Shown piece by piece: positions 941 to 32,310 of a stretch of DNA of 43,098 bases. The DNA lies in contig NZ_JH597768.1 in assembly GCF_000243315.1 (NCBI RefSeq), forward strand, positions 160,269 to 203,366, read 5' to 3'. How positions within the stretch are numbered: the stretch's first letter is position 1; every line of letters starts with the position of its first letter. The DNA comes from Metallosphaera yellowstonensis MK1. Its GTDB lineage: Archaea > Thermoproteota > Thermoprotei_A > Sulfolobales > Sulfolobaceae. Below the pieces are notes generated by a model, which worked only from the letters and a program-made list of their open reading frames with translations, was not told where the DNA came from and ran no database searches. The translations under genes were made by a program, and so were the position numbers.

Positions 941-1004
941 TTATAAATAAAGTAAAGAATTAATGGTGAGAATCCCTTTTAAGCGATTATTCTTAATAAT
1001 CAAG
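941..1004 (+). promoter_or_regulatory. Promoter region of coxMSL
   Basis: A TATA-like stretch (CTTTTAAG, 976-983) sits about 26 bp upstream of the ATG at 1005, the spacing expected for a leaderless Sulfolobales transcript. A second TATA-like stretch (TTATAAAT, 941-948) would instead give a short leader. This is why the start at 1005 is preferred over the ATG at 963. The stretch 796-940 between the transposase relic and this site holds no recognisable gene. Confidence 0.45.
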
Positions 1005-1847
1005 ATGTATCCACCGCAGGTGGGCTATTTCAGGCCCGAGAGTTTAGGAGAAGCGTTGGAATTTTTAGAGAGGGAGGAAGCAAAGGTACTAGCTGGTGGG
1101 CAGAGCCTTATACCAATGTTAAAGTTGAGAGTTCTACGTCCTAAATATCTCGTAGATATAGGAGGCCTTAAGGAACTCTCTTACATCAAGGAGGGAGACA
1201 CGATCAGTATAGGCGCCACAACGAGACACTTTGAACTTGCGTCGCGTAGGATTAGAGGATTGGAGATTTTACAGGAGGCCGCTTCAAAGGTAGGTGACGT
1301 TCAGGTCAGGAACGTAGGTACAATAGGAGGGAGTGTATGTAACGCTGATCCAGCAGCCGACTACCCCGCCGTGCTTACGGCGTTGGACGCAACCATGAAG
1401 GTTAGATCCAAGAAGGGGACCAGGGAAGTCAAGGCCCATGACTTCTTCAAGGGACCCTTCTCTGTGGACCTGAATCCAGGTGAAGTGCTCGAGGAGATAA
1501 GGATCCCAAGGCTAGAAGGCTATCGTCAAACTTACAGGAAGGTAGTAAGGAGGGCGGGAGATTTTGCCTTAGCGGGGCTGGCACTGGCCATAAAACTGGA
1601 CTCCGGGGTGGTAAAGGACGTTAGGATAGCTTTCACTGGAGTATCTCAGGGACCACACAGAGCTAAAGAGGCCGAGAAGGTATTGAGGGACAGTAAGCTC
1701 ACGAAGGACGTGATAAAGAGGGCATCCGAAGCGTCCACGTCTGGAGCTAATCCTCCATCTGACTCCAGGGGCTCTTCCTGGTATAGATTAGAGGTAATGA
1801 AAAGATTACTCCAGACCTCCTTGGAGGTGATGGCAAATGAAAGTTGA
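1005..1847 (+). CDS. coxM: Molybdenum hydroxylase FAD-binding subunit (CoxM/CutB type)
   Basis: Medium, FAD-binding subunit of a xanthine-dehydrogenase-family molybdenum hydroxylase, which passes electrons from the Fe-S subunit to an acceptor. It shows the two FAD-contact motifs of the family: [13 protein letters not shown] near residue 30 and [17 protein letters not shown] near residue 105. The 280-residue length from the ATG at 1005 fits the family (about 280-290). An ATG at 963 would add 14 atypical residues and I consider it less likely. The gene opens a medium-small-large operon and overlaps the small subunit by 11 bp. In Sulfolobales such complexes include the glyceraldehyde oxidoreductase of the branched Entner-Doudoroff pathway; the substrate here is inferred only. 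Confidence 0.9.
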
Positions 1848-2325
1848 ACCAGATCAGAAGGTAAGGATAAACGTGAAGGTAAACGGAGTATTGCACGAGG
1901 CCGAAGTGGAACCCAGGAAACTTCTGGTTGACTTCCTTAGAGACGACTTGGGTCTGACGGGAACTAAAGTCGGCTGCGACACTACAACTTGTGGTGCTTG
2001 TACGATATTACTCGACGGGAGATCAGTAAAGTCCTGCACGTTATTGGCTGTGCAGGCCCACGGTAGGGAGATCACTACCATAGAAGGACTCTCGTCAGAC
2101 TCAAAACTCTCCCCGGTGCAAGAGGCGTTCAAGGATAATTTCGCTCTGCAGTGTGGGTTCTGCACCGCAGGAATGATAGTTCAGGCCACGTTCCTTCTCT
2201 CCCAGAAGAAGGATATGACTGAGGAAGAAATTAGAGACTCGATCCACGGTAACATCTGTAGATGTACAGGTTACCAAAACATAGTTAACGCCATAATGGA
2301 TGCTTCTAGGAGGATGAAAGCATGA
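1837..2325 (+). CDS. coxS: Molybdenum hydroxylase [2Fe-2S] subunit (CoxS type)
   Basis: Small electron-transfer subunit with two [2Fe-2S] clusters. The plant-ferredoxin-like N-terminal cluster is held by Cys47, Cys52, Cys55 and Cys67 ([10 protein letters not shown], later SC). The C-terminal helical domain provides Cys106, Cys109, Cys141 and Cys143 (CGFC and CRC). The 162-residue length is normal. The start is supported by a strong GGAGGTGA Shine-Dalgarno inside the end of coxM. It overlaps coxL by the ATGA arrangement, so the three subunits are almost certainly co-translated in fixed ratio. Confidence 0.95.
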
Positions 2326-4562
2326 GTTACTCGGGTAAGTCAGTAAAGAGACTATACGACGACAAGTTCGTGACAGGGAGAAGTACATACGTAGACGACC
2401 TAAAGATAAACGCCCTTTACGCTGCTTTCGTGAGGAGCAACTACGCCCACGCAGTGATAAAGAGAGTTCACAAGGAAGACGCACTGAAGATGAGCGGCGT
2501 AGTGACAGTATACACGGGCGAGGAGTTAAACAGGGTGATAAAGGAAGGAATAGGGCCGTGGACTACCTACATCGACCCTAGACCCTGGAAGATACCCAAG
2601 TGGAGGTTCGCACAGGGAGAGGTTAAGTATGCAGGAGAACCGGTTGCCGTTGTTTTAGCCACTGACAAGTATAGGGCGAGGGACGCGGCAGAGGCTATCA
2701 CGGTAGACTATGAACCTGTGGATGCTGTAGTTTCCATGGAGGAAGCGAAGAAGGACAAAGTGCTGGTCCATAAGGAACTGGGCACAAACTACGGCTATAA
2801 GAACGACTTCGTGGCAGGAAATCCAGAGAAGGCTTTGGAGAGTGCGGACCACAGGAAGAAGGTAGAAATTGGGAACAGGAGACTCATTCCATCCCCCATG
2901 GAACCAAGAGGGATAGTGGCTAGCTATGATGGGTCTAACCTTTCCGTGTGGTACTCTACACAGATACCTCACTTCGCGAGGGCTGAATTCAGCAGAATCT
3001 TCGGGATACCACAGAGCAGAATAAGGGTTGTAATGCCTGACGTGGGAGGAGGGTTCGGGAGCAAGGCACACATTATACCGGAGGAACTTGCCGTTATAGC
3101 TTCCTCAATGATGTTAGGTAAACCCGTAAGGTGGACAGCCACCAGGACAGAGGAGATGATGGCCACGAACTCTAGGCACAACGTCTTCAGGGGTGAGATA
3201 GGATTCAACAACGACGGTACACTTGTGGCCATAAACGGCACTCTAGAGGTAGAGTTGGGGGCCTATCTCACATACACTGAAGGGATACAACCAACGATCA
3301 TTCCGCTGATGATCCCAGGTCCCTATAGGGTCAGAGATCTGAAGATAGAGAGCAGGGCCATCTACACCAATACTATTCCCATTACCATGTATAGGGGAGC
3401 TAGCAGGCCAGAGGCTACCTTTATTATCGAGAGACTCATGAGCACTGTAGCCGACGAGTTGAAGCTGGATGACGTCACTGTCAGAGAGAGGAATCTTGTC
3501 AGAGAGGATCAGATGCCCTATACTAATCCCTTCGGACTGAAATACGATACTGGGGATTACCTTACGCTTCTGAGGGAAGGAGTGAAGATCCTAGAGTACA
3601 ACTCCATGAAGGAGTGGGCTAGGAAGGAGAGAGAGAAGGGGAAAAGAGTTGGAGTGGGACTAGCGTACTACCTTGAAATATGTGGCTTCGGGCCCTGGGA
3701 GTACGCAGAGACCAGAGTCACGGAGGATGGAGGTGTGATAGTAGCCATAGGTGGTACTCCTCACGGGCAGGGAACCGAGACTGCAATCGCTCAACTTGTA
3801 GCAGACGAGCTTCAAGTGCCAATAGAGAGAGTGAAGGTGATCTGGGGAGACAGTGATGCTATACCTGCGGGAACTGGGACTTATGGTTCCAGGACTGTGT
3901 CCATAGCAGGTAGTGCGGCCGTCACAGCGAGCAGACAGGTTCTGGAGAAGATGAGGAGAGTTGCAGCTAGGGCGATGAAGGCAGACGTGGAGGAGATAGA
4001 GTACAAGAACGGAGAGTTCGTCCACAAGAGAGAGGGTAAAAAGATGAGGTGGGAAGAAGTCTCCAGGCTGGGTTATAGCGGTAAGGAACCGGGACTTTCA
4101 GCTAGCGTCACACTGGAGGGTGACGTTACGTTCCCGTATGGCATACACATGGCTATAGTAGAGGTGGATGAGTACGGGATGGCTAGGGTCAAGGAATACA
4201 GGGCATACGACGATATTGGGAGAGTTATTAATCCAGCGCTAGCTGAGGGTCAGATTCACGGAGGAGGTACTCAGGCTGTTGGTCAGGCCCTATACGAGCT
4301 CGCTGTGATAAACGAGAACGGACAGCTAGCTGTTACTTACGCTGACTATTACGTCCCCACAGCTGTCGAGTCTCCCAAGTTCAAGAGTTACTTCGCAGAG
4401 AAGTATCATCCGTCCCCCTATCTCACTAAGACTAAGGGCGTTGGAGAGGCTGCACTCATTGTAGGTCCGGCAGTGATAGTTAGGGCGTTAGAGGACGCAA
4501 CTGGTGGAAAGTTCGACTTCACACCAGTCATTCCTGAGGAGATATTGAAGAAGATGAAATAA
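2322..4562 (+). CDS. coxL: Molybdenum hydroxylase molybdopterin subunit (aldehyde oxidoreductase type)
   Basis: Catalytic large subunit that binds molybdopterin cytosine dinucleotide and oxidises aldehydes or a related substrate. Family motifs are GGGFGSKAH, the active-site loop [19 protein letters not shown], and the catalytic Glu in GVGEAA near the C-terminus. The loop lacks the AYRCSFR signature of true form I CO dehydrogenase, so CO oxidation is unlikely, and the YRGA-RPEA form is typical of aldehyde and glyceraldehyde oxidoreductases. The 746-residue length is normal. The start follows a GGAGGATG Shine-Dalgarno. The stop is followed by a T-rich tract (about 4574-4591) that could terminate the transcript. 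Confidence 0.92.
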
Positions 4563-17191: not shown

Positions 17192-18328
17192 CTAACCTCT
17201 CAGCTCTATGGGTATTACTTCCCTCCTTATTGGACCTACGTATAATGCTCTGGGCCTTATTAGCCTATGTTGTTCCTCCACATACTCTATTACGTGTGCT
17301 GTCCACCCTAGTGTTCTTGAAAGGGCGAAGAGAGACGTGAACATGTATACCGGAAAGCCTAGGGCGTAGAACACTACGCCAGAGTAGAAGTCTGTGTTGG
17401 GAAAGATGTGTTTCTGAGAAAACATCTGGATCCCTAGTTCTTCCACCTTCTGTGCTATCTCGAAGTATTTCTTGGCCTCCTGATTCCTCTCCGATAGCTG
17501 TTTCGCAAATCTTTTGAATAATTTTGCCCTGGGATCATATGTCTTGTAAACCCTGTGGCCGAATCCCATGAGCCTTGCCTTCCCTTCCACTATCTTCTTC
17601 TGGAACCACTGATCTGTATTCTCTGGAGAACCTATTTCTAAGAACTGTTTGAACGCCTCCTCTGCTGCACCCCCGTGGAGAGGTCCCTTCAGGGCAGCTA
17701 ACGCGGCGACTACACAGGAGTACATATCGGAGAGCGTAGAGGAAGTTACTAAAGCTGCAGTGGTAGACGCTGGAACCTCGTGATCGGCGTAAAGTATTAG
17801 GGAAGCATCCATGGCTTTCACCTCCTCTGTGGAGGGTGTCCTATTAAAAGAGGCCTCCAGGAAGCTCCTAGCGAAACTGTCAGAAGGTTCAGGTATCCTC
17901 GGCTTCTTTCCTTCCTTTGCCCTCAACACGTTAGTGACGACCGTGGAGGCCCTGGCTATCACCTTTATTGCAGTCTCCCTGTTGGTGACCTTGTTCCAAG
18001 GAGATCCATATATGGAAGAAAGAGCGGAGAAAGCGGTCTCCATCATCCCAACTGCGTCTGAGTCCCTTGGAAGACCGTAGATCATATCAATAACCTGCTG
18101 GGGAATCTCATAACCCTCATTCAGGAGAACCCTTATTCTCTGCAACTGAATCTTGTTGGGGAGATCACCGTAAAGCATAAGGTACACTACTTCTTCGAAG
18201 GTTGTGTGATCCACCAAGTCATCAATGTCGTACCCCCCGTACCTGAGGATGCCGTTCTCTCCATCAATATATGTGAGCGAAGTCGTCTTAATGTAAACGT
18301 TCTCTAGACCTCTGCTTATCTGGCTCAT
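17192..18328 (-). CDS. Citrate synthase / 2-methylcitrate synthase
   Basis: Condenses acetyl-CoA or propionyl-CoA with oxaloacetate. The three catalytic regions are present: GPLHGGAAEE, GFGHRVYKTYDPRA and the Asp in PNTDFYSG; the CoA-binding C-terminus is EYVEEQHRLIRPRALYVGP. The 378-residue length and the start MSQISRGLENV match Sulfolobus citrate synthase, which is known to accept both acyl-CoAs. The ATG at 18328 has a GGAGTGA site at good spacing; a GTG at 18337 is less likely. Neighbouring methylisocitrate lyase and PrpD genes favour at least partial use in the methylcitrate cycle. Co-transcribed with a CBS-domain gene. Confidence 0.93.
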   Translation of the reverse strand: MSQISRGLENVYIKTTSLTYIDGENGILRYGGYDIDDLVDHTTFEEVVYLMLYGDLPNKIQLQRIRVLLNEGYEIPQQVIDMIYGLPRDSDAVGMMETAFSALSSIYGSPWNKVTNRETAIKVIARASTVVTNVLRAKEGKKPRIPEPSDSFARSFLEASFNRTPSTEEVKAMDASLILYADHEVPASTTAALVTSSTLSDMYSCVVAALAALKGPLHGGAAEEAFKQFLEIGSPENTDQWFQKKIVEGKARLMGFGHRVYKTYDPRAKLFKRFAKQLSERNQEAKKYFEIAQKVEELGIQMFSQKHIFPNTDFYSGVVFYALGFPVYMFTSLFALSRTLGWTAHVIEYVEEQHRLIRPRALYVGPIRREVIPIELRG

Positions 18329-18329
18329 C

Positions 18330-18755
18330 TTAGTCACTCCCCACGAACTCCTCTCTCTCGACGTCAGATATGGCCTTTAATACATGTGATTCCCTTATTA
18401 TGTCCCGTACTGAGATAACTCCTACTAGGTTACCCTTAGAGTCCACCACGATTAGATGTCTCAGATTCCTCTCAGCCATCTTCTTTACTGCGGTGTATAT
18501 TGTATCATCCTCCTTGACAGTTACGAGGTTTTTAGTCGTACCGAGCTCCTCAACCGGTTGATCTAAACTAATCCCCCTGGCTAAGCCTCTGATTATGTCT
18601 CTCTCAGTTATGATTCCAGCCAACTTCCCCCCCTCCGTTATAATTACCGAACCCATGTTGTTTGAGGCCATCAGTTTTACCGCGTTAATGGCAGGAGTTC
18701 CTTTCTCCAATGTCACCGGATTTTTACTTATCAGGTGTTTTACTATACTCACCAT
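18330..18755 (-). CDS. CBS-domain pair protein
   Basis: Protein of 141 residues made of two CBS domains: the first at about residues 8-60 (NPVTLEKGTPAINAVKLM through ITERDIIRGLA), the second at about 70-125 (VTVKEDDTIYTAVKKMAE through VISVRDIIRES). Such Bateman modules bind adenine nucleotides (AMP, ATP, NADH or SAM) and sense energy state. It stands directly upstream of citrate synthase, with only one base between its stop and the synthase ATG, so it may regulate that enzyme. A TATA box (ACTTTTATAATT, about 18775-18787 read leftward) starts this two-gene unit. Confidence 0.9.
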   Translation of the reverse strand: MVSIVKHLISKNPVTLEKGTPAINAVKLMASNNMGSVIITEGGKLAGIITERDIIRGLARGISLDQPVEELGTTKNLVTVKEDDTIYTAVKKMAERNLRHLIVVDSKGNLVGVISVRDIIRESHVLKAISDVEREEFVGSD

Positions 18756-18788: not shown

Positions 18789-19613
18789 TTATGCCAACTC
18801 CTTATCTAACTTTTCGTAATAGTCATAACGGATTACCTCGTATTGTTGCTTTCTTGTCATCATTTTGTCCATCAGGTTCTTCTGAGTTCCTTCTGCCAAG
18901 AGAACCTTAAGTGCGTCCTCCATGGCCTTCGCGGCGACTCTGAATATAGTTACTGGGAATATCACATAAGTATAACCCATCTCCCTGAATTCTTGGGCAG
19001 TTATTAGTGGTGTCTTCCCGAACTCCGTCATGTTGGCCAGGAGAGGTGCATTGACTTCCCTTGAGAACTCCCTAAACTCCTCCTTAGATTGAAGAGCCTC
19101 TGGGAATATTATATCGGCACCCGCTTCCAAGTAGGCCTTAGCTCTCTCTATGGCATCCCTTAGACCGAGGATCGCCCTAGAGTCCACTCTGGCGATAATT
19201 TTAGCCTCCCTCCTGGCTCTCACAGCGGCCTTTATCTTGGACACCATCTCGTTATGAGGTATTACCTCCTTTCCGTCCAGGTGACCACATTTCTTCGGCA
19301 GTCTCTGATCCTCTATCTGAATTGCGTCCGCCCCTGCTCTCTCTAAAACCCTTACTGTCCTGTAGACGTTGAGGGCCTCTCCGAAACCCGTATCTGCGTC
19401 GACTATCATGGGGATCTCCGTAACCTCCCTTATCCTCCTCACCATATCTGCCAGCTCGTACATGTCTATGATCCCTATGTCGGGCAAACCCATGGAGGAG
19501 GTTAGGGCTCCGCCTGACAAGTAAACCGCCTTGAACCCTACCCTCTCAGCCAAGAGAGCAGTGAAGGGATTGAATACTCCAGGCACTATGGTGAATTCCT
19601 TACCAAGAGGCAA
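18789..19613 (-). CDS. prpB: 2-Methylisocitrate lyase (PrpB-like)
   Basis: Member of the isocitrate lyase/PEP mutase family that cleaves 2-methylisocitrate into pyruvate and succinate. The substrate loop carries KKCGH (LPKKCGHLDGK), the signature of methylisocitrate lyases, and the metal site is in VDADTGFGEALNVYRTV and IQIEDQ. The 274-residue length is typical. The start is TTG at 19613 with a GGAGGTGAG Shine-Dalgarno, overlapping the prpD-like gene by 14 bp. Confidence 0.9.
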   Translation of the reverse strand: MPLGKEFTIVPGVFNPFTALLAERVGFKAVYLSGGALTSSMGLPDIGIIDMYELADMVRRIREVTEIPMIVDADTGFGEALNVYRTVRVLERAGADAIQIEDQRLPKKCGHLDGKEVIPHNEMVSKIKAAVRARREAKIIARVDSRAILGLRDAIERAKAYLEAGADIIFPEALQSKEEFREFSREVNAPLLANMTEFGKTPLITAQEFREMGYTYVIFPVTIFRVAAKAMEDALKVLLAEGTQKNLMDKMMTRKQQYEVIRYDYYEKLDKELA

Positions 19614-20877
19614 TGGAACTCACCTCCTCCATTCTCTCCAGGTCCCATACTTTCTCTATTACACCCTTAGGTAATCCCAGTTGAAGGGCCTTTTCTTCGA
19701 CCTCTTGATCGCTCATGGGGTTCTTATAGTGTCCCCTCGGGATTCTCACCTCCTTCTCGAAGGTTCCCCTGTCCGTCTCCACTATCAACCTGGTAGGTAA
19801 CTCCTTCGGGTAAACCTTGGTGTAGTCCTCCCTTTCTACGACGTTAACCTTCTTCATGAGCTCCGTCACCATCTTATCGCCTATTAGATCGTAAGAGTCC
19901 AACCACATCCTCTTGGTCAGGAGAGAGACGGAGACTATGTAGGGGAGGCTGTGGTCTGCAGTCTCCTTGTTCTTAGGATCCCACTTCCCCTCATCGGCTA
20001 ATATTGTTTTACCAGCCTCGTAGGTCTCCACCACGATTCTCTTTATGTTCCCTGTGTACTCCAGTTGTAGTGCTGCCTCGACAGCGGCCTGGGCGTGATA
20101 CTCCACAGGATACTTCTTGATATAGGTCTCCAATATCTTAGAGACACCCATCTTTTTCAGTGCTTCCTCGTTCAGATCTGGCGCTACCACGTTCTTGAAT
20201 CCCATCTTTCCAGAGAAGGGCCTTGAGGGACCCGTGAAACCTGACTTGGCCAATACGGCTGAGAACAAAGCGTTCCTGACAGCCTCCGCCGCTGCTCCTG
20301 CCTTCCACATACTCAGACTCCCAGACCTAGTCTCCCTGAGAGCTACGTGTGGAATTAACGATAACGAAATGGCGTTTACCATCTGCTCAGCGTTCAGTCG
20401 TAACAGTTTTCCAGCCATAACTGCCGCTCCCACTTGGAGGAAATTGACGTGATCGAAACCTTTCTTCCTCAGGGAGGTGGAGTCGCAGAGCCTTGTGGAA
20501 ACCTCATACCCTAAGGCTACAGCCGTTATAACCTCCTCACCTCTGCCTCCTAGGGCTATTGCACCTCCTATCATGTCACTGGGATGAAGCGGCTCCAGGG
20601 AAAGGTAAGTGTCGTTGAAGTCCAGGTACCTAATGAGGAGAGTGTTATAAAAAGCGGCCATGTCGTACGACGCTGTTCCTCCACCCAGAAGAGCTCCTCT
20701 CCCTTGGAAGTCTGGCAAAACTTCCCTGACTACCTTGGCGGGGGGCGAGTTCCTGGAGGCATAAGCTACCGCTAGGGAGTCTATGAACCTCCTCTTTACC
20801 TCGTGTACCACCCTCTCGGGGAGATCAGAGGGTGAAATTGAGACCGCGTGTTGAGCTATTTGCTCGGCAAGTTCCAT
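19600..20877 (-). CDS. prpD: MmgE/PrpD family 2-methylcitrate dehydratase
   Basis: Cofactor-free dehydratase of the MmgE/PrpD family, 425 residues, likely dehydrating 2-methylcitrate. Family features are the helical N-terminal domain with the motif RFIDSLAVAYA, YLDFNDTYL, GYEVSTRL, and the C-terminal AEDEGKWDP-like region (ADEGKWDPKNKETADHSLPY). A TATA box (ATTTTTTAAATC, about 20900-20911 read leftward) gives a leaderless ATG at 20877. First gene of a prpD-prpB unit, followed by the CBS-citrate synthase unit. Confidence 0.88.
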   Translation of the reverse strand: MELAEQIAQHAVSISPSDLPERVVHEVKRRFIDSLAVAYASRNSPPAKVVREVLPDFQGRGALLGGGTASYDMAAFYNTLLIRYLDFNDTYLSLEPLHPSDMIGGAIALGGRGEEVITAVALGYEVSTRLCDSTSLRKKGFDHVNFLQVGAAVMAGKLLRLNAEQMVNAISLSLIPHVALRETRSGSLSMWKAGAAAEAVRNALFSAVLAKSGFTGPSRPFSGKMGFKNVVAPDLNEEALKKMGVSKILETYIKKYPVEYHAQAAVEAALQLEYTGNIKRIVVETYEAGKTILADEGKWDPKNKETADHSLPYIVSVSLLTKRMWLDSYDLIGDKMVTELMKKVNVVEREDYTKVYPKELPTRLIVETDRGTFEKEVRIPRGHYKNPMSDQEVEEKALQLGLPKGVIEKVWDLERMEEVSSIASW

Positions 20878-20947
20878 AGTTTATAATGGTGATACAAAGA
20901 TTTAAAAAATAAGTTGAATGTCAGAACTTCATTCGCTAGTTTTAAAT

Positions 20948-23212
20948 CTAAAAACTCTCCACCTTTTGTACTTTTCTATTCAAAAACCTTAACACGAACT
21001 CTGGAGTTATGGGAACCTCTATCTCACTTAAGTTGACGCCTAGAGCGTCTTCCAAGGCGTTCGCTATAACTGCATAAGGAACGGTGGCACCACCTTCTGC
21101 TACTCCCTTAGTTCCAAGGGGGGTGAACGGAGATGGTGAGACCAAGTGGTGTATCTCTATATCAGGTACCTCCATCGCCGTGGGAACCCAGTACTCTGAC
21201 AGGTTGGACTGCAGTGGTACTCCAGATGAGTACGAAATCAGCTCATAGAGGGCTGCCCCTATTCCCATGGCAGTCCCGCCCATGAGCTGTCCGTCTACAA
21301 TGAGAGGATTTATCAGGTTTCCACTATCGCTCACCACTACGTACTTCTTGATCTTGATAAAACCGGTCTCTGGATCAACCTCGATCAGGGCACCGTGGGC
21401 GTTAACACCGTAGGTGGAAGAAAAGTTGACCCTCCTCTTCTCATCAGCTACGTTCACGTTAGGAGAGTTGAAAACTTCGGTCGCCTCGAGTCCCATATCT
21501 TCCAGAGGGACATGATATTTATTGTAAATGATGTTAGCAGCCTCCTCCAGAGGAAACGTCCTCCCGCCAACCCTCACTAAACCCTCTTTTATCTCGATCT
21601 TGTCGACCTCCACATTGAAGATCTTCGCCAATAAATCTCTCATCTTGTCCAGGAGTTTGAGCGAGGCCTTGTACACAGCGCTCACTCCCACAACGGAGAA
21701 CCTACTTCCGTAAAATCCAGTACCTGGTGGACCCGACGTGTCGCCCAGGATCACTTTGACCTTATCCATCCCTATTCCTAGGACATGAGACACCACCTGG
21801 GCGATAGTGGTCTCGTGTCCCGTTCCCATGGAGTTCGTGCTCATGACTACAGTTACATCCCCCCCACTCTCCATCTTTATGTAAACCCCCTCGTAGTAAG
21901 GGGTTCTAGGTTTTCCCACCACTAAGGTTTGAAACGCTAAAGATGAACCTGGCTCCAGAGCCAATGCGACCCCGATTCCCTCCCACCTGGACGACTTTTG
22001 GCCTAAGGCCTGCCTTAACACCTCCAGGGTTCTAACGTAATCACCGCTGTCGTACACGGCACCAGTTATGGTAGTGTAAGGAAGCTCGGTGATGAAGTTC
22101 TGCTTCCTTATCTCCCATTGGTCTAAGTTTAGATCCCTTGATAAGGAACTCACCATATTCTCCAAGACGAGCACAGCTGGGGGGATACCGAGTCCCCTGT
22201 AGGGTCCAGTTGGTGGTAGATTTGTAAGTATTCCATTTATCTTAAAGCGTAAATATTTAATCCTATAGGCCCCGGTCAGGTGGTAGATTTGTCTCAGGAT
22301 AGGGAGAGGCTGATAAGTGTGCATATAAGCCCCGAAGTTTTCTAACAACTCCACATCCATTCCCAATAGCTCCCCTCCCCTAAACAACAACTTGGCCCTG
22401 TATTTCCTATCTGGACCGTGGACCGCAGCTGTCACGTGTTCCGTTCTGGTCTCCACGAACTTGACGGGCCTTCCCGATAATATGGAAGCCATTGCTGTCA
22501 TGACTAGAGGTTTAAGGAAGATCTTCCCTCCAAATCCTCCTCCGGAGTCTGGGACTATTATCCTAATCTTACTTCTCGGGATCTGAAACACTATACTCAA
22601 GGCAGTCCTAAAGACCTGAGGAACCTGGGTGTTGGAGTAAACGGTCAGGGCCTGATCTACAGGATTATAATCCGCTATGACCCCGTTTGTCTCAATGGGC
22701 ATTGGGGACACCCTGTGGACCCTGAAACTTTTCTCCACCACCTGATATTCCCTCGGATGTTCACCGTACTCGAAGAGGTCCTGGTATACCAAGTTTGTAC
22801 CCAAATCCTCGTGAACTAGCTCCTTGTCCATCAGGGCGTCTTCAGGAGTAGAAATGGGATCCAAAGGTTCGTATTCAACCTCGACCCTTTCCTTGAGGTC
22901 CTCAGCCTCGTACCTGTCTCTCCCCAGCACTATTGCTATGGGTTCTCCCACGTATCTTACCTCTCCCGTTGCTAGAGGGTATTCCTTGGGAGCCTTATCG
23001 AAGAAGAAGTTAGGGAGAGGATTAGTCTTCAAACTGTCCTGCGTTATCACCTCCACCCCTTCCCTAGGAAGGACTCTGAACCTAGCCCTGGGGTAAATTG
23101 ACCTGACTACTGCCATGTGAAGCATTCCAGGGAGGGACAGATCGTCTATGAACCTACCCCTGCCGGTCAGGAACCTGGGGTCCTCTACCCTCCTCAGGGG
23201 TTTACCTATCAT
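20948..23212 (-). CDS. Orphan CoxL-type molybdopterin subunit
   Basis: Large subunit of a xanthine-dehydrogenase-family enzyme, 754 residues, homologous to but clearly different from the one at 2322-4562. Motifs are GGGFGGKIF, the active-site loop GPYRGLGIPP, FYGSRFSVVG and the catalytic Glu in KGVAEGGA. No medium (FAD) or small (Fe-S) subunit gene lies nearby, which is unusual, since these enzymes need both. It begins by ATGA overlap with an acyl-CoA dehydrogenase gene, so the two are co-translated. It may borrow the small subunits encoded at 1005-2325, or act with another electron carrier. The substrate is unknown, perhaps a heterocyclic or CoA-linked aromatic compound. Confidence 0.88.
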   Translation of the reverse strand: MIGKPLRRVEDPRFLTGRGRFIDDLSLPGMLHMAVVRSIYPRARFRVLPREGVEVITQDSLKTNPLPNFFFDKAPKEYPLATGEVRYVGEPIAIVLGRDRYEAEDLKERVEVEYEPLDPISTPEDALMDKELVHEDLGTNLVYQDLFEYGEHPREYQVVEKSFRVHRVSPMPIETNGVIADYNPVDQALTVYSNTQVPQVFRTALSIVFQIPRSKIRIIVPDSGGGFGGKIFLKPLVMTAMASILSGRPVKFVETRTEHVTAAVHGPDRKYRAKLLFRGGELLGMDVELLENFGAYMHTYQPLPILRQIYHLTGAYRIKYLRFKINGILTNLPPTGPYRGLGIPPAVLVLENMVSSLSRDLNLDQWEIRKQNFITELPYTTITGAVYDSGDYVRTLEVLRQALGQKSSRWEGIGVALALEPGSSLAFQTLVVGKPRTPYYEGVYIKMESGGDVTVVMSTNSMGTGHETTIAQVVSHVLGIGMDKVKVILGDTSGPPGTGFYGSRFSVVGVSAVYKASLKLLDKMRDLLAKIFNVEVDKIEIKEGLVRVGGRTFPLEEAANIIYNKYHVPLEDMGLEATEVFNSPNVNVADEKRRVNFSSTYGVNAHGALIEVDPETGFIKIKKYVVVSDSGNLINPLIVDGQLMGGTAMGIGAALYELISYSSGVPLQSNLSEYWVPTAMEVPDIEIHHLVSPSPFTPLGTKGVAEGGATVPYAVIANALEDALGVNLSEIEVPITPEFVLRFLNRKVQKVESF

Positions 23213-24405
23213 GCGGGGATCCCCAGAAACTTGCGGTAGAAGTGCCTCGCCGCGGAAATCCTCTGGATGTCGTTAGTGCCCTCATATGTCTTCAAGATCT
23301 GAACGTCCCTCAACATTCTCTCCAGGCCAGTGGACGTAGTGACTCCGTATCCTCCGTGAACTGTCATAGCCCTCAAAATTATCCTCTCCGCAGCCTCTGT
23401 GGCAGAGAACTTGGCTAGGGAAGCTACCATAACGTACTCTTCCTCCTTTCCCTTGACCAGGAGGTTCCCCGCCCAGTAGGTCAGCAACCTAGCCTGAAAT
23501 AGCTCTGCCATGGATTCTGAGAGCTTTTGCTGAACCATCTGAAAGGAAGCGAGGCTCTGTCCAAACGACTTTCTGTCTACCGAATATTGCACCATCTTCT
23601 CCAAGGCAGCCTGGCCTATTCCAAGAGCCTGAGAGGCCACGATAGTCCTCGCATAATCGAAGGAAGATACGGCGTATTTGAATCCCATGTCCACTTGTCC
23701 CACAACGTTCTCCTCGGGGACCTTTACCTCGTTGAAGCTGATCTCTGTAGTGTGCGATGCCTTCAGACCGGTGGTCTCTATCCTTCCTTCGACTTTGAAC
23801 CCTGGAAAGTCCTTCTCTACAACGAACATAGTTAGTCCCTTCCATCTCGGAGTCTGTGGCTGAGACGTCCTTGCAGTGACTATGATATAGTCCGCTAAGT
23901 CCCCATTGGTTATGAAGATCTTCCTTCCCGTTAGTATATAATTCTCTCCCACTTTCTTGGCCACCGAAGTTATGCCTGCCACGTCGGTCCCAGCACCAGG
24001 CTCGGTGTTGGCAAACGCTGCTATTCTCTCTCCCTTGGCCACAGGTGGAACGTACTTCTTCTTTAACTCCTCACTCCCGAACTTCAGGATGGCGTTGGTG
24101 AACATCCAGTTTATCAGGAGGAATGTAGAGACTGAGGGCCAAATCCTGCTTATCTCCTCCGTAGCCACAATCAGGGAGAGGTAATCGGCCCCTGAACCTC
24201 CGTATTCCGCAGGCACGTCGAGACCGTTGAGACCTAACTCCCTTATTTTTTCCCTAACTACTCCTAAGTCACCGTTCCTCTCACCCTCCTCCACTCTATT
24301 GGCCACTTCCCTTTCCATGAACTCCCTTATTGTAGACCTGAGAAGCTCGTGATCCTGAGTTAACTCCACCTTAAAGTCCTCCACTTCCTTGAAAGGGTAA
24401 ACCAT
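23209..24405 (-). CDS. Acyl-CoA dehydrogenase
   Basis: FAD enzyme of 398 residues that introduces an alpha-beta double bond in acyl-CoA thioesters. Family signatures are visible: the substrate/FAD stretch NTEPGAGTDVAGI, KIFITNGDLADYIIV, QALGIGQAALEKMVQYSVDRKSFG in the helical domain, and the catalytic Glu in TYEGTNDIQRI near the C-terminus. It overlaps the orphan CoxL gene by ATGA, so a dehydrogenase-hydroxylase pathway on one CoA-linked substrate is plausible. The upstream aminotransferase ends nine bases before it. Confidence 0.92.
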   Translation of the reverse strand: MVYPFKEVEDFKVELTQDHELLRSTIREFMEREVANRVEEGERNGDLGVVREKIRELGLNGLDVPAEYGGSGADYLSLIVATEEISRIWPSVSTFLLINWMFTNAILKFGSEELKKKYVPPVAKGERIAAFANTEPGAGTDVAGITSVAKKVGENYILTGRKIFITNGDLADYIIVTARTSQPQTPRWKGLTMFVVEKDFPGFKVEGRIETTGLKASHTTEISFNEVKVPEENVVGQVDMGFKYAVSSFDYARTIVASQALGIGQAALEKMVQYSVDRKSFGQSLASFQMVQQKLSESMAELFQARLLTYWAGNLLVKGKEEEYVMVASLAKFSATEAAERIILRAMTVHGGYGVTTSTGLERMLRDVQILKTYEGTNDIQRISAARHFYRKFLGIPA

Positions 24406-24414
24406 GGATCTCGC

Positions 24415-25668
24415 CTAAATCTGTTCTATTTCCTCCTTTATCACTTTAGTTGCTTTCATTGCCAACTCCTCCTCTATGACCAAAGGTGGCAGAAGCCTCA
24501 CCACCGACTCTCCTGCACCTATGGCTAAGACCCCCCTTCTGAAGGAATTGAGCAAGACCTTGCTCAGGCCCTCTGGATACGGCCTTCCACCCTTCCTCAG
24601 ATCTACCCCGAGCATCAGGCCCAATCCTCTCACCTCCTCCACGTAAGGAGATTTGATGTCATTGAGTTTATCTGCAATAGCCTTACCCACCTCACTCACG
24701 TGATCCAAAAGCCTGGGAACCTCCTCAAGAACCACCTCTGCTGCGGCTAAGGCTAATGGGTTTCCTCCGAAGGTGTTAGCGTGAGAACCTCTGGGTAGAT
24801 CCATCAGCTCCTCCCTTCCAACCACTGCTCCTAGGGGGAGTCCCCCACCTAATGCCTTCGCTAAACACACTAGGTCTGGGTCGACAGAGAAGTGCTCAAA
24901 CGCGAACATCTTCCCCGTCCTTCCTATTCCAGTTTGAACCTCGTCAAGAATCAAGAGTATTCCATGTCTCCTTGTGAGAGACCTCAACTGCTGAAGGAAG
25001 TCCTTGGGTGGAACCACGACTCCTCCCTCTCCCTGTATGGGTTCCAACAGTACTGCCGCAACGTCGTTAGGGTCCACCACCTTATTTAGAACCCAGTCCT
25101 CCAGATAGGAAATAACTTCTGCTGAACAGTCATCCCTGCACAGAGGATTGTGCTTGTCTGGATAAGGAAGTAGTAGAGTGGATGGCAGAAGCGGTGAAAA
25201 CATGGATCTTTGAACGTACTTACTGGAGGTGAAAGACATGGAACCGAAGGTCCTACCATGGAACGAGTTGATGAATCCCAGGATATATTGTCTTCCAGTG
25301 CTAGCCCTAGCTATCTTTAGACTGGCCTCAACGCTCTCAGTACCGCTATTTGTGTAAAACACCTTCGTAGACCAAGGGAAGAAACCTGTCAATCTCTTGG
25401 CTACCCTGACGGCCAGCTCATAATAGAAATCGGTCAGACTGTAGTGCAAAAATTTCTCCATCTGTGTCTGAATAGCGTTTAAGACCTTCCTGTTCCTGTG
25501 GCCTAGGGCCATAACGCCTATGCCCGCATTCATGTCTATGTATACCCTCCCCTCAATGTCATACACCAGGGAGCCCTCAGCGTGGTCTATTACCAGGGGA
25601 TACCATCTACTGAAGGACTGCATGAGGTACTTTGAATCCTCCTCCACGACTTCAGAAACGGAGACCAT
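24415..25668 (-). CDS. Class III aminotransferase (GabT-like)
   Basis: PLP-dependent aminotransferase of 417 residues from the 4-aminobutyrate / beta-alanine / acetylornithine group. PLP-binding features are TNSGTESVEASLKIAR, SFHGRTFGSMS, the Asp in LILDEVQTGIGRTGK and the Schiff-base Lys in LAKALGGGLPLG. A TATA box (TATAAATAT, 25691-25699) gives a leaderless ATG at 25668. It is the first gene of a unit with acyl-CoA dehydrogenase and the orphan CoxL, so it probably converts an omega-amino acid to a semialdehyde for further oxidation. Confidence 0.9.
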   Translation of the reverse strand: MVSVSEVVEEDSKYLMQSFSRWYPLVIDHAEGSLVYDIEGRVYIDMNAGIGVMALGHRNRKVLNAIQTQMEKFLHYSLTDFYYELAVRVAKRLTGFFPWSTKVFYTNSGTESVEASLKIARASTGRQYILGFINSFHGRTFGSMSFTSSKYVQRSMFSPLLPSTLLLPYPDKHNPLCRDDCSAEVISYLEDWVLNKVVDPNDVAAVLLEPIQGEGGVVVPPKDFLQQLRSLTRRHGILLILDEVQTGIGRTGKMFAFEHFSVDPDLVCLAKALGGGLPLGAVVGREELMDLPRGSHANTFGGNPLALAAAEVVLEEVPRLLDHVSEVGKAIADKLNDIKSPYVEEVRGLGLMLGVDLRKGGRPYPEGLSKVLLNSFRRGVLAIGAGESVVRLLPPLVIEEELAMKATKVIKEEIEQI

Positions 25669-25789: not shown

Positions 25790-26950
25790 ATGGACTTCTC
25801 TTTCTCGGAGGAAGAGAGAATATTCCAAGAAAACCTGAGGGAATTCCTCAGCAAGGAACTGAGGCCCATGATGCGAAGGATCGACAGTGAGGGAATTCCG
25901 CACGAGTTCGTTAAGAAGGCTGCGTCGCTGGGGATATGGGCTATGCCTGTGTCCCAGGACGTGGGGGGTCAGAGGGCCTCCTTCGTGTTGAGCTCCATCG
26001 CGGCTGAGGAGATAGCTAGGGCCGATTTCAGCATGGCCACTGCGGTGTTGTTCCTGCTTGAGAGCGGATGGGGATACGTCCTCGACAAGTATGGCTCCAA
26101 GGAGCTCAGGGAGGAGGTGCTCCCAAGGGTGACCTCAGGGGACTGGTTCCTGGGCATAGCTTCCACAGAACCAACAGGAGGGAGCGACGTCTCGTCCATA
26201 AAGACGGGGGCGGTAAAGAGGGGGAAAGAATATGTTATGAACGGCCAGAAGATCTACATAAGTGGAGTGTTAGAGGCTAAAGAATGGGGAGGAGGCCACT
26301 TGACTCTAGCCAAGACGAAACAGGAGGTTGGACACAAGGGAATAACCATGTTTTACGTGCCTATATCTATGGAGGGTGTCGAGGTTACCAAGATAGAGAA
26401 CATGGGAAGATCCGGTATATCCTCTGGAATAATAAGGTATAATGACGCCAGGGTTCCTGAAAGATATGTAGTTGGGGAAGAGAACAGGGGGTTCTATTAC
26501 GCCATGGACGGCTTCAATCACGCTAGGGTTCTGGTTGCGGCTGCATGTGTGGGAGCAGCTGAAGCCATCTTGGATATCGGGTTAGAGTACATTAAGTCCA
26601 GGGAGGTTTTCTCCAAGAAACTGAAGGACTTTCAGAGCATAGCCTTTGAGGCGGCTGAGCTCAGGACTAAGCTGGAGATGGCTAGGCTCCTCACATACAA
26701 GGCTGCATGGATGATGGACACTAACCCAGGTTCTGAGGAAGCGCCCATGTTTGCGGCCATGAGTAAGCTTGTAGCTCCTCAGACGGCGTTTGAGGTAGTC
26801 AAGGCGGTGATGATGTGGATGGGCGCTTACGGATACACTAGGGACGCACTTATTGAGATGGGCTTCAGGGGAGTGGTCTCTTACCTAGTTGGGGCTGAGG
26901 GAGCTATGAACGTCATGAGACTCATTATCTCTAAGAGACTCCTAGAGTAA
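25790..26950 (+). CDS. Acyl-CoA dehydrogenase, second
   Basis: FAD-dependent acyl-CoA dehydrogenase of 386 residues. It shows STEPTGGSDVSSIKT (FAD/substrate loop), KIYISGVLEAKEWGGGH, and a C-terminal EGAMNVMRL that corresponds to the catalytic Glu region, although the usual YEGTN reads GAEGAMN. This departure, and limited similarity to the copy at 23209-24405, suggest a different acyl substrate. The ATG at 25790 is leaderless according to the TATA box 26 bp upstream. Transcribed divergently from the aminotransferase unit. Confidence 0.9.
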   Translation: MDFSFSEEERIFQENLREFLSKELRPMMRRIDSEGIPHEFVKKAASLGIWAMPVSQDVGGQRASFVLSSIAAEEIARADFSMATAVLFLLESGWGYVLDKYGSKELREEVLPRVTSGDWFLGIASTEPTGGSDVSSIKTGAVKRGKEYVMNGQKIYISGVLEAKEWGGGHLTLAKTKQEVGHKGITMFYVPISMEGVEVTKIENMGRSGISSGIIRYNDARVPERYVVGEENRGFYYAMDGFNHARVLVAAACVGAAEAILDIGLEYIKSREVFSKKLKDFQSIAFEAAELRTKLEMARLLTYKAAWMMDTNPGSEEAPMFAAMSKLVAPQTAFEVVKAVMMWMGAYGYTRDALIEMGFRGVVSYLVGAEGAMNVMRLIISKRLLE

Positions 26951-31376: not shown

Positions 31377-31804
31377 TTCGTCTTTACCCTGAGAGGAATT
31401 CCGTATTCCATTATTTCAACTTCGCTACCCGCCTTTAGCTCCCCCTGCACACTTCCCAAGAGTCCTCCACTGCATCCCCTAAATCTAATCAACCCTATAA
31501 CCAAGGGCTTCTCCAACCTTCTTCCTTCATCGTCCTCATAGATTATTGTAAACGTATCTAGATACGGTCCCTTAGCCTCCACGTATTCTCCGTTCTCTAC
31601 GAAGCAGTCCTCACAGTACATTCTGGGAGGTACGTAGATTCTTCCGCACTTGGTACACTTCCTTCCCAATATCTTACCTTCCTTGAGTCCGTTGAGAAAC
31701 ACCTCTCCGTCTACACCCAGCGTGTAAACGTAGCTCTCCACTTCCATTACATCCTTCCAGCTCAGAAGTGACGTTTCCTTACTTATCTTGTCCCAAGACA
31801 TCAT
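31373..31804 (-). CDS. DUF35 zinc-ribbon/OB-fold protein, copy 2
   Basis: Acyl-CoA-binding-like DUF35 protein of 143 residues. The N-terminal zinc ribbon is CTKCGRIYVPPRMYCEDC, followed by an OB fold (TFTIIYEDDEGRRLEKP, VIGLIRFRG). The ATG at 31804 overlaps the stop of the previous gene and follows a GAGGTGGT site; a longer version starting at 31864 would sit inside the neighbour and is rejected. DUF35 proteins bind and position CoA substrates for thiolase-fold enzymes. Its zinc-ribbon coding segment is identical in DNA to that of copy 1. Confidence 0.88.
   Translation of the reverse strand: MMSWDKISKETSLLSWKDVMEVESYVYTLGVDGEVFLNGLKEGKILGRKCTKCGRIYVPPRMYCEDCFVENGEYVEAKGPYLDTFTIIYEDDEGRRLEKPLVIGLIRFRGCSGGLLGSVQGELKAGSEVEIMEYGIPLRVKTK
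31599..31702. repeat. 104-bp identical repeat, copy A
   Basis: This 104-bp stretch is identical base for base to 32096-32199. It encodes the segment FLNGLKEGKILGRKC through YCEDCFV of DUF35 copy 2, including the whole zinc ribbon. The flanking sequence of the two genes is clearly diverged. The edges are sharp, as expected from recent gene conversion. Confidence 0.95.
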
Positions 31805-32310
31805 ACCACCTCGAAACACTCTATGTCGTTTATACTCCCGGTCCTCTCTTCTCTGGGCTTCCACCTGGCCTTCACGATCTTGCCAAAAATAGTCATGTTC
31901 CTCACATCTTCATAGGAACAGCATATCCTGTGAAACAGTCCTGGGTAAACGTAATCCCTTGCGGTAGAGGGGAAGAGCCTTATCGTTCCCACGATCTCTG
32001 GATGGTCTAGCCTCTCCCTGGTCCAGGATATGAAACTAGCCACAGCAGTCATCACAACTCCCTCGTCCTTCACCTCCACCCACAGGCTCGTGGGGACGAA
32101 GCAGTCCTCACAGTACATTCTGGGAGGTACGTAGATTCTTCCGCACTTGGTACACTTCCTTCCCAATATCTTACCTTCCTTGAGTCCGTTGAGAAACACA
32201 CTCAGAGCCTGTCCCGCAGTGTAGGAGTATCTAGCCTTCGGCTTGTCCTCCACTACTGGATGACGCTTCAAGTCCTCTTCCTTTAATGGATGTACCGTCA
32301 CGCTAATCAC
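31801..32310 (-). CDS. DUF35 zinc-ribbon/OB-fold protein, copy 1
   Basis: DUF35 protein of 169 residues with an N-terminal helical part, the zinc ribbon CTKCGRIYVPPRMYCEDC and a C-terminal OB fold (VVMTAVASFISW, EIVGTIRLFP, FGKIVKARWKP). It follows the thiolase-fold gene by one base. It shares only the zinc-ribbon stretch closely with copy 2; the rest is diverged. Two different DUF35 proteins with two different thiolase-fold partners suggest a hetero-oligomeric complex. Confidence 0.88.
   Translation of the reverse strand: MISVTVHPLKEEDLKRHPVVEDKPKARYSYTAGQALSVFLNGLKEGKILGRKCTKCGRIYVPPRMYCEDCFVPTSLWVEVKDEGVVMTAVASFISWTRERLDHPEIVGTIRLFPSTARDYVYPGLFHRICCSYEDVRNMTIFGKIVKARWKPREERTGSINDIECFEVV
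32096..32199. repeat. 104-bp identical repeat, copy B
   Basis: Identical to 31599-31702, 497 bp away in direct orientation, inside DUF35 copy 1. See copy A for the encoded segment. Recombination between the copies would delete 497 bp and fuse the two genes in frame. Confidence 0.95.

Follow-up and report, generated by a model that had tools for sequence, protein, structure and literature searches.

The orphan CoxL gene and its partner

In Metallosphaera yellowstonensis MK1 a gene for a CoxL-type molybdopterin-binding large (L) subunit stands alone beside an acyl-CoA dehydrogenase gene. The locus raises two questions: from where such a subunit obtains its FAD-binding (M) and Fe-S (S) partners, and what it does next to an acyl-CoA dehydrogenase. 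The window, meaning the whole stretch of DNA analysed, comprises 43,098 nucleotides.

Both genes lie on the minus strand. CoxL (754 amino acids, 20948-23212) has the domains Ald_Xan_dh_C, MoCoBD_1 and MoCoBD_2, each above its Pfam cut-off in the domain search. The dehydrogenase AcDH1 (398 amino acids, 23209-24405) has its best PDB matches among acyl-CoA dehydrogenases of the short-chain type; with all three acyl-CoA dehydrogenase domains and the catalytic Glu375 present (YEGT, in YEGTND), it is an acyl-CoA dehydrogenase. The stop codon of AcDH1 and the start codon of CoxL overlap as ATGA at 23209-23212 (minus strand), which suggests translational coupling. A search for M and S genes found none adjoining CoxL, the closest being about 19 kb away in a trio at 963-4562. 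The preliminary description of the locus was exact in the coordinates of both genes and had correctly reported the ATGA overlap and the absence of a FAD or Fe-S partner nearby.

Conservation of the pair

CoxL orthologs were found in 16 of the 31 Sulfolobaceae genomes searched, the window's own and 15 others. The latter are 61-76% identical to CoxL while all remaining matches in the 31 genomes reach at most 40%, leaving a clean gap. The neighbourhood is readable in 15 of the 16 genomes, window included; the remaining ortholog (G021) is on a contig of only 3.2 kb. The preliminary description had proposed a search for the same pair elsewhere, and this was borne out: AcDH directly precedes CoxL in every readable locus (15/15), with a spacing of -4 to +12 bp, and the 4-base overlap is retained in 12 of them.

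The pair occurs in five genera of the thermoacidophilic family Sulfolobaceae (g1, g6, g5, g4 and g8) and its surroundings vary by genus. An aminotransferase gene and methylcitrate genes are found in the window's genus and other genes in g4 and g8. The genes etfB-etfA lie directly before the pair in g6, with an Fe-S protein and a 2-oxoacid:ferredoxin oxidoreductase after it, and divergent ETF genes are located near the pair in g5. In three ortholog pairs dN/dS was 0.03-0.12 for CoxL and 0.02-0.07 for AcDH, and both proteins are under purifying selection. The constant adjacency in differing surroundings, together with these ratios, indicates that the pair is kept by selection and excludes decay. 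An accidental pairing, or a decaying CoxL gene as the preliminary description had considered, would be in line with the absence of CoxL from one member of g6 (G015) and from the genera g11, g9, g7, g10, g3 and g2. It is nevertheless extremely improbable given that CoxL is intact in 15 loci, with low dN/dS and invariant catalytic residues.

Among 398 genomes of the phylum no CoxL ortholog was found outside the family, only paralogs of at most 40% identity, several of which adjoin branched-chain amino-acid transporters or aromatic-type genes. A pattern-based scan of genome contigs matched M. javensis only, and the open-access papers searched contained nothing on the AcDH-CoxL pair itself. In G098 (L099:7900-14064), from a distant family within the phylum, an orphan gene resembling CoxL (38% identity) comes after an AcDH gene (35%), and thiolase, DUF35 and enoyl-CoA hydratase-like genes come next. 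This is possibly an independent pairing.

The dependence between the two genes is one-sided. AcDH1 orthologs are present without CoxL in g11, g9, g7, g3 and G015, and in G015 the row etfB-etfA-AcDH1-FeS-oxidoreductase is intact with CoxL alone missing. In the loci read, no CoxL of this subfamily was found without an adjacent AcDH. The CoxL-linked AcDHs do not form one clade in the AcDH tree; its starred branches require at least five changes, and the linked copies of G004 and G020 are deep-branching. The occurrence of AcDH1 without CoxL in several genomes and the shape of the tree both imply that CoxL keeps its AcDH neighbour and that AcDH does not need CoxL, which makes CoxL an add-on step, dispensable for the AcDH reaction. 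ETF is very likely the acceptor for AcDH, since its genes lie next to AcDH in two of the genera that have the pair and also in one that lacks it.

These observations also bear on the possibility that CoxL and AcDH form a direct complex of their own, with the FAD of AcDH, or ETF, in place of the M and S subunits. The ATGA overlap and the gene order etfB-etfA-AcDH-CoxL in g6 agree with such a complex, but in known XOR-family enzymes the electrons leave the molybdenum centre via [2Fe-2S] clusters, which AcDH lacks. Moreover, AcDH is retained where CoxL is absent, and the AcDH orthologs with and without a linked CoxL show a consistent difference in one column only (268, L or F), so that no partner-specific surface is visible. 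The complex is therefore very improbable, and the idea that AcDH stands in for the M subunit was rejected, since there is neither an Fe-S route nor such a surface.

A near-identical but shorter duplicate of the CoxL-linked AcDH is found in G020 (L105:6714-12295), beside a second molybdenum-hydroxylase M-S-L set with an L gene that is divided between two ORFs.

Source of the M and S subunits

The window's genome has five L, two M and two S genes, and only one L gene has its own M/S pair. A free-standing M/S pair (M2/S2) is located at C10:789192-790483 (L083:5127-6535) and is closest to 4zoh_B (5.5e-128) and 4zoh_C (3.7e-94). It adjoins a gene for a MocA-like cytidylyltransferase that scores below the model cut-off. 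The M and S genes were read directly in four genomes (G000, which is the window's own, G004, G007 and G011), and in G004 and G011 CoxG-like genes, recognised by eye from the sequence without an NCBIfam match, also lie beside them. The free-standing pair and the MocA-like gene would constitute a shared molybdenum-hydroxylase module that is conserved in Sulfolobaceae.

There is a precedent for such sharing. Working with S. tokodaii, Wakagi et al. (2016; PMC4726530) purified the enzymes GAOR2 and GAOR3 and showed that an M/S pair of this family is shared by two distant L genes. The orphan L subunit is the rule in the genomes studied here and orphan status as such is already published; CoxL is an orphan because most L genes in these genomes are. 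It has no adjacent M or S gene, and a free-standing M/S pair of the 4ZOH type is present in the genome, as for the orphan L subunits of GAOR2 and GAOR3. G004, whose genome is one contig and includes the AcDH-CoxL pair, has seven L genes but just a single M gene and a single S gene, neither of them beside an L gene (the completeness is 91%, so a missed M/S pair is possible but unlikely). CoxL quite probably assembles with M2/S2.

The preliminary description had the right idea in proposing that CoxL shares M and S subunits, but the source that it named, at 1005-2325, is probably wrong. These M and S genes (plus strand) exceed the cut-offs of NF041019 and NF041020, and the accompanying L gene (2322-4562, plus strand) scores 1313 bits with NF041018 (cut-off 790). 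Since all three subunits pass their NCBIfam cut-offs, the M and S genes belong to a complete GAOR1-type glyceraldehyde oxidoreductase trio. What favours the trio as the source is its position 19-20 kb from the pair in every genome of the genus searched. Against this, the trio has its own L subunit, the single M/S pair of G004 is of the free-standing M2/S2 type, and the free-standing pair is the one that serves GAOR2 and GAOR3 (PMC4726530), making the trio a quite improbable donor. The preliminary description had also held that dedicated M and S genes elsewhere would speak against its reading; such subunits do exist elsewhere in the genome, but they are shared and not dedicated.

The plug-in principle proposed for S. 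tokodaii is thereby supported across many genomes, with one M/S module serving up to seven catalytic subunits. A further orphan L gene of the window's genome, on contig C10 (L053:9704-12096), shares 4 bases with an ORF of 98 amino acids and has 2-oxoacid oxidoreductase-like genes nearby.

CoxL as a divergent L subunit

The AlphaFold model of CoxL (pLDDT 84.7) matches L subunits of the XOR family in Foldseek with E-values down to 5e-67. The protein has the catalytic Glu706, Arg339 of the YRG loop, GGGFG at 224-228, GSR at 502-504 and Gln196, and E706, GG-FG and GSR are present in all 15 orthologs. With its domains, catalytic glutamate and cofactor motifs, CoxL is an L subunit of an XOR-family molybdenum hydroxylase. 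The Gln of the GQG motif, a common but not absolute criterion, is replaced by an invariant Thr464 in 15/15 orthologs.

CoxL resembles GAOR2 (STK23390/STK05620/STK05610, PDB 4ZOH) and GAOR3 of S. tokodaii in being an orphan L subunit, in fold, in the catalytic glutamate and in the M/S family present in the genome. However, it is only about 37% identical to them, it is coupled to an acyl-CoA dehydrogenase gene, and most of the pocket residues named in PMC4726530 are replaced. In nearly all 15 orthologs the changes relative to GAOR2 are Y190V, D292P, D293L, S330P/A, A334L and R336I, and the pocket as read from these substitutions is more hydrophobic than that of GAOR2. A strongly conserved insertion, EPGSSLAFQTLVVxKPRTPYYEG (about 420-442), is found where the GAORs have a short loop. 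GAOR1, the cutABC trio at 963-4562, also has an XOR-family L subunit but is 35% identical to CoxL and has its own M and S. With the glyceraldehyde oxidoreductase model NF041018 CoxL scores 498.6 bits, below the cut-off of 790. What is new is thus an L subfamily at most 40% identical to any other L subunit found, with an insertion, a changed pocket and an obligate AcDH partner.

Aerobic CO dehydrogenase was rejected as an identity for CoxL. Domain order and fold are the same, but identity is about 30%, the score with TIGR02416 is 401 bits (cut-off 991), and the aligned loop reads YRGLGIP without the active-site Cys found in the YRCSFR loop of CO dehydrogenase. "CoxL" annotations in Sulfolobales should not be taken to mean CO oxidation. 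SSO1209 of S. solfataricus, annotated as the large chain of CO dehydrogenase, may be a CoxL ortholog.

The preliminary description had proposed a new route in which the molybdenum enzyme acts on a CoA-linked compound. In the version considered here, CoxL together with the shared M2/S2 would hydroxylate a CoA thioester that AcDH produces or consumes. Molybdenum hydroxylases are not known to hydroxylate simple enoyl-CoAs, which counts against this route. There are XOR-family precedents: 4-hydroxybenzoyl-CoA reductase (1rm6, which is among the Foldseek matches at 3.1 A rmsd) and 2-furoyl-CoA dehydrogenase HmfABC (PMC6678421) act on CoA thioesters, although both have dedicated M and S subunits. 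The route also accords with the more hydrophobic pocket, the conserved insertion and the constant presence of an AcDH next to CoxL at all loci read. The score with the 4-hydroxybenzoyl-CoA reductase model TIGR03194 is, however, 318 bits against a cut-off of 994.55, there are no ring-degradation genes beside the pair, and AcDH1 is present without CoxL in many genomes. Taken together, the route is unlikely. Its stronger form is decidedly unlikely: here CoxL would represent a new subfamily of molybdenum hydroxylases whose substrate is the CoA-bound compound that AcDH consumes or releases, with electrons passing to ETF or quinone. If true, it would mean that the shared M/S module has been plugged into acyl-CoA catabolism.

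Role of the pair

The reading that we favour, and consider somewhat better than an even bet, is that CoxL is the L subunit of an LMS molybdenum hydroxylase with shared M2/S2 that would work in one catabolic unit with AcDH, most likely on an aldehyde. Lacking M and S subunits of its own, CoxL would borrow the FAD subunit (M2) and the subunit with two [2Fe-2S] clusters (S2) of the genome, in the manner of GAOR2 and GAOR3 of S. tokodaii. The molybdenum centre would oxidise the substrate with Glu706 as base, and the electrons would leave via S2 and M2. The tight coupling of AcDH and CoxL suggests that both enzymes act in one catabolic unit, which may handle short or branched organic acids and the carbon skeletons of amino acids. 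AcDH would desaturate an acyl-CoA with ETF as acceptor. The molybdenum enzyme would oxidise a companion compound, small and hydrophobic and most likely an aldehyde, and activation of the resulting acid would then give acyl-CoA.

That a small hydrophobic aldehyde is converted to an acid entering acyl-CoA catabolism with AcDH is suggested by the pocket polarity and the gene context, but only tentatively, with rather less than even confidence. The insertion in CoxL is unlike anything in known aldehyde oxidoreductases, and both it and the invariant Thr464 count against an aldehyde. The AcDH-CoxL pair is a clean and testable gene pair that ties an orphan molybdenum subunit to acyl-CoA metabolism.

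Neighbouring genes

A class III aminotransferase gene (24415-25668, minus strand; NF004426 above cut-off) ends 9 bp upstream of AcDH1 and is probably the first gene of the AcDH1-CoxL unit. It is found next to the pair in the window's genus only. The same is true of the methylcitrate-cycle genes downstream of CoxL, all on the minus strand: a MmgE/PrpD-like gene of the 2-methylcitrate dehydratase family (19600-20877, below the NCBIfam prpD cut-offs), methylisocitrate lyase PrpB (18789-19613, TIGR02317 above cut-off), a CBS-domain protein (18330-18755) and citrate/2-methylcitrate synthase (17192-18337, TIGR01800 and NF041157 above cut-off). The preliminary description mentions neither the aminotransferase gene nor these downstream genes. 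A TATA-like element, TTTTTTAAAT, is seen in the sequence at 20900-20909 (minus strand), its centre about 27 nt upstream of the PrpD start, and suggests that the methylcitrate genes are transcribed from a start of their own.

In Metallosphaera the carbon might drain into propionyl-CoA and the methylcitrate cycle. The case for this is weak because these genes adjoin the pair in one genus only and are preceded by the TATA-like box before prpD. Oxidation of methylmalonate semialdehyde by CoxL during valine breakdown was considered but discarded, since it would give methylmalonate instead of propionyl-CoA, at odds with the methylcitrate genes.

A second acyl-CoA dehydrogenase gene, AcDH2 (25790-26950, plus strand), is divergent from the aminotransferase gene. 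It is found in the same place in five relatives and is conserved beside the unit in the genus. Further along the window, two neighbouring DUF35-like genes contain a perfect direct repeat of 104 nt (31599-31702 and 32096-32199), giving an identical stretch of about 35 amino acids in both proteins, which looks like recent gene conversion or a local duplication.
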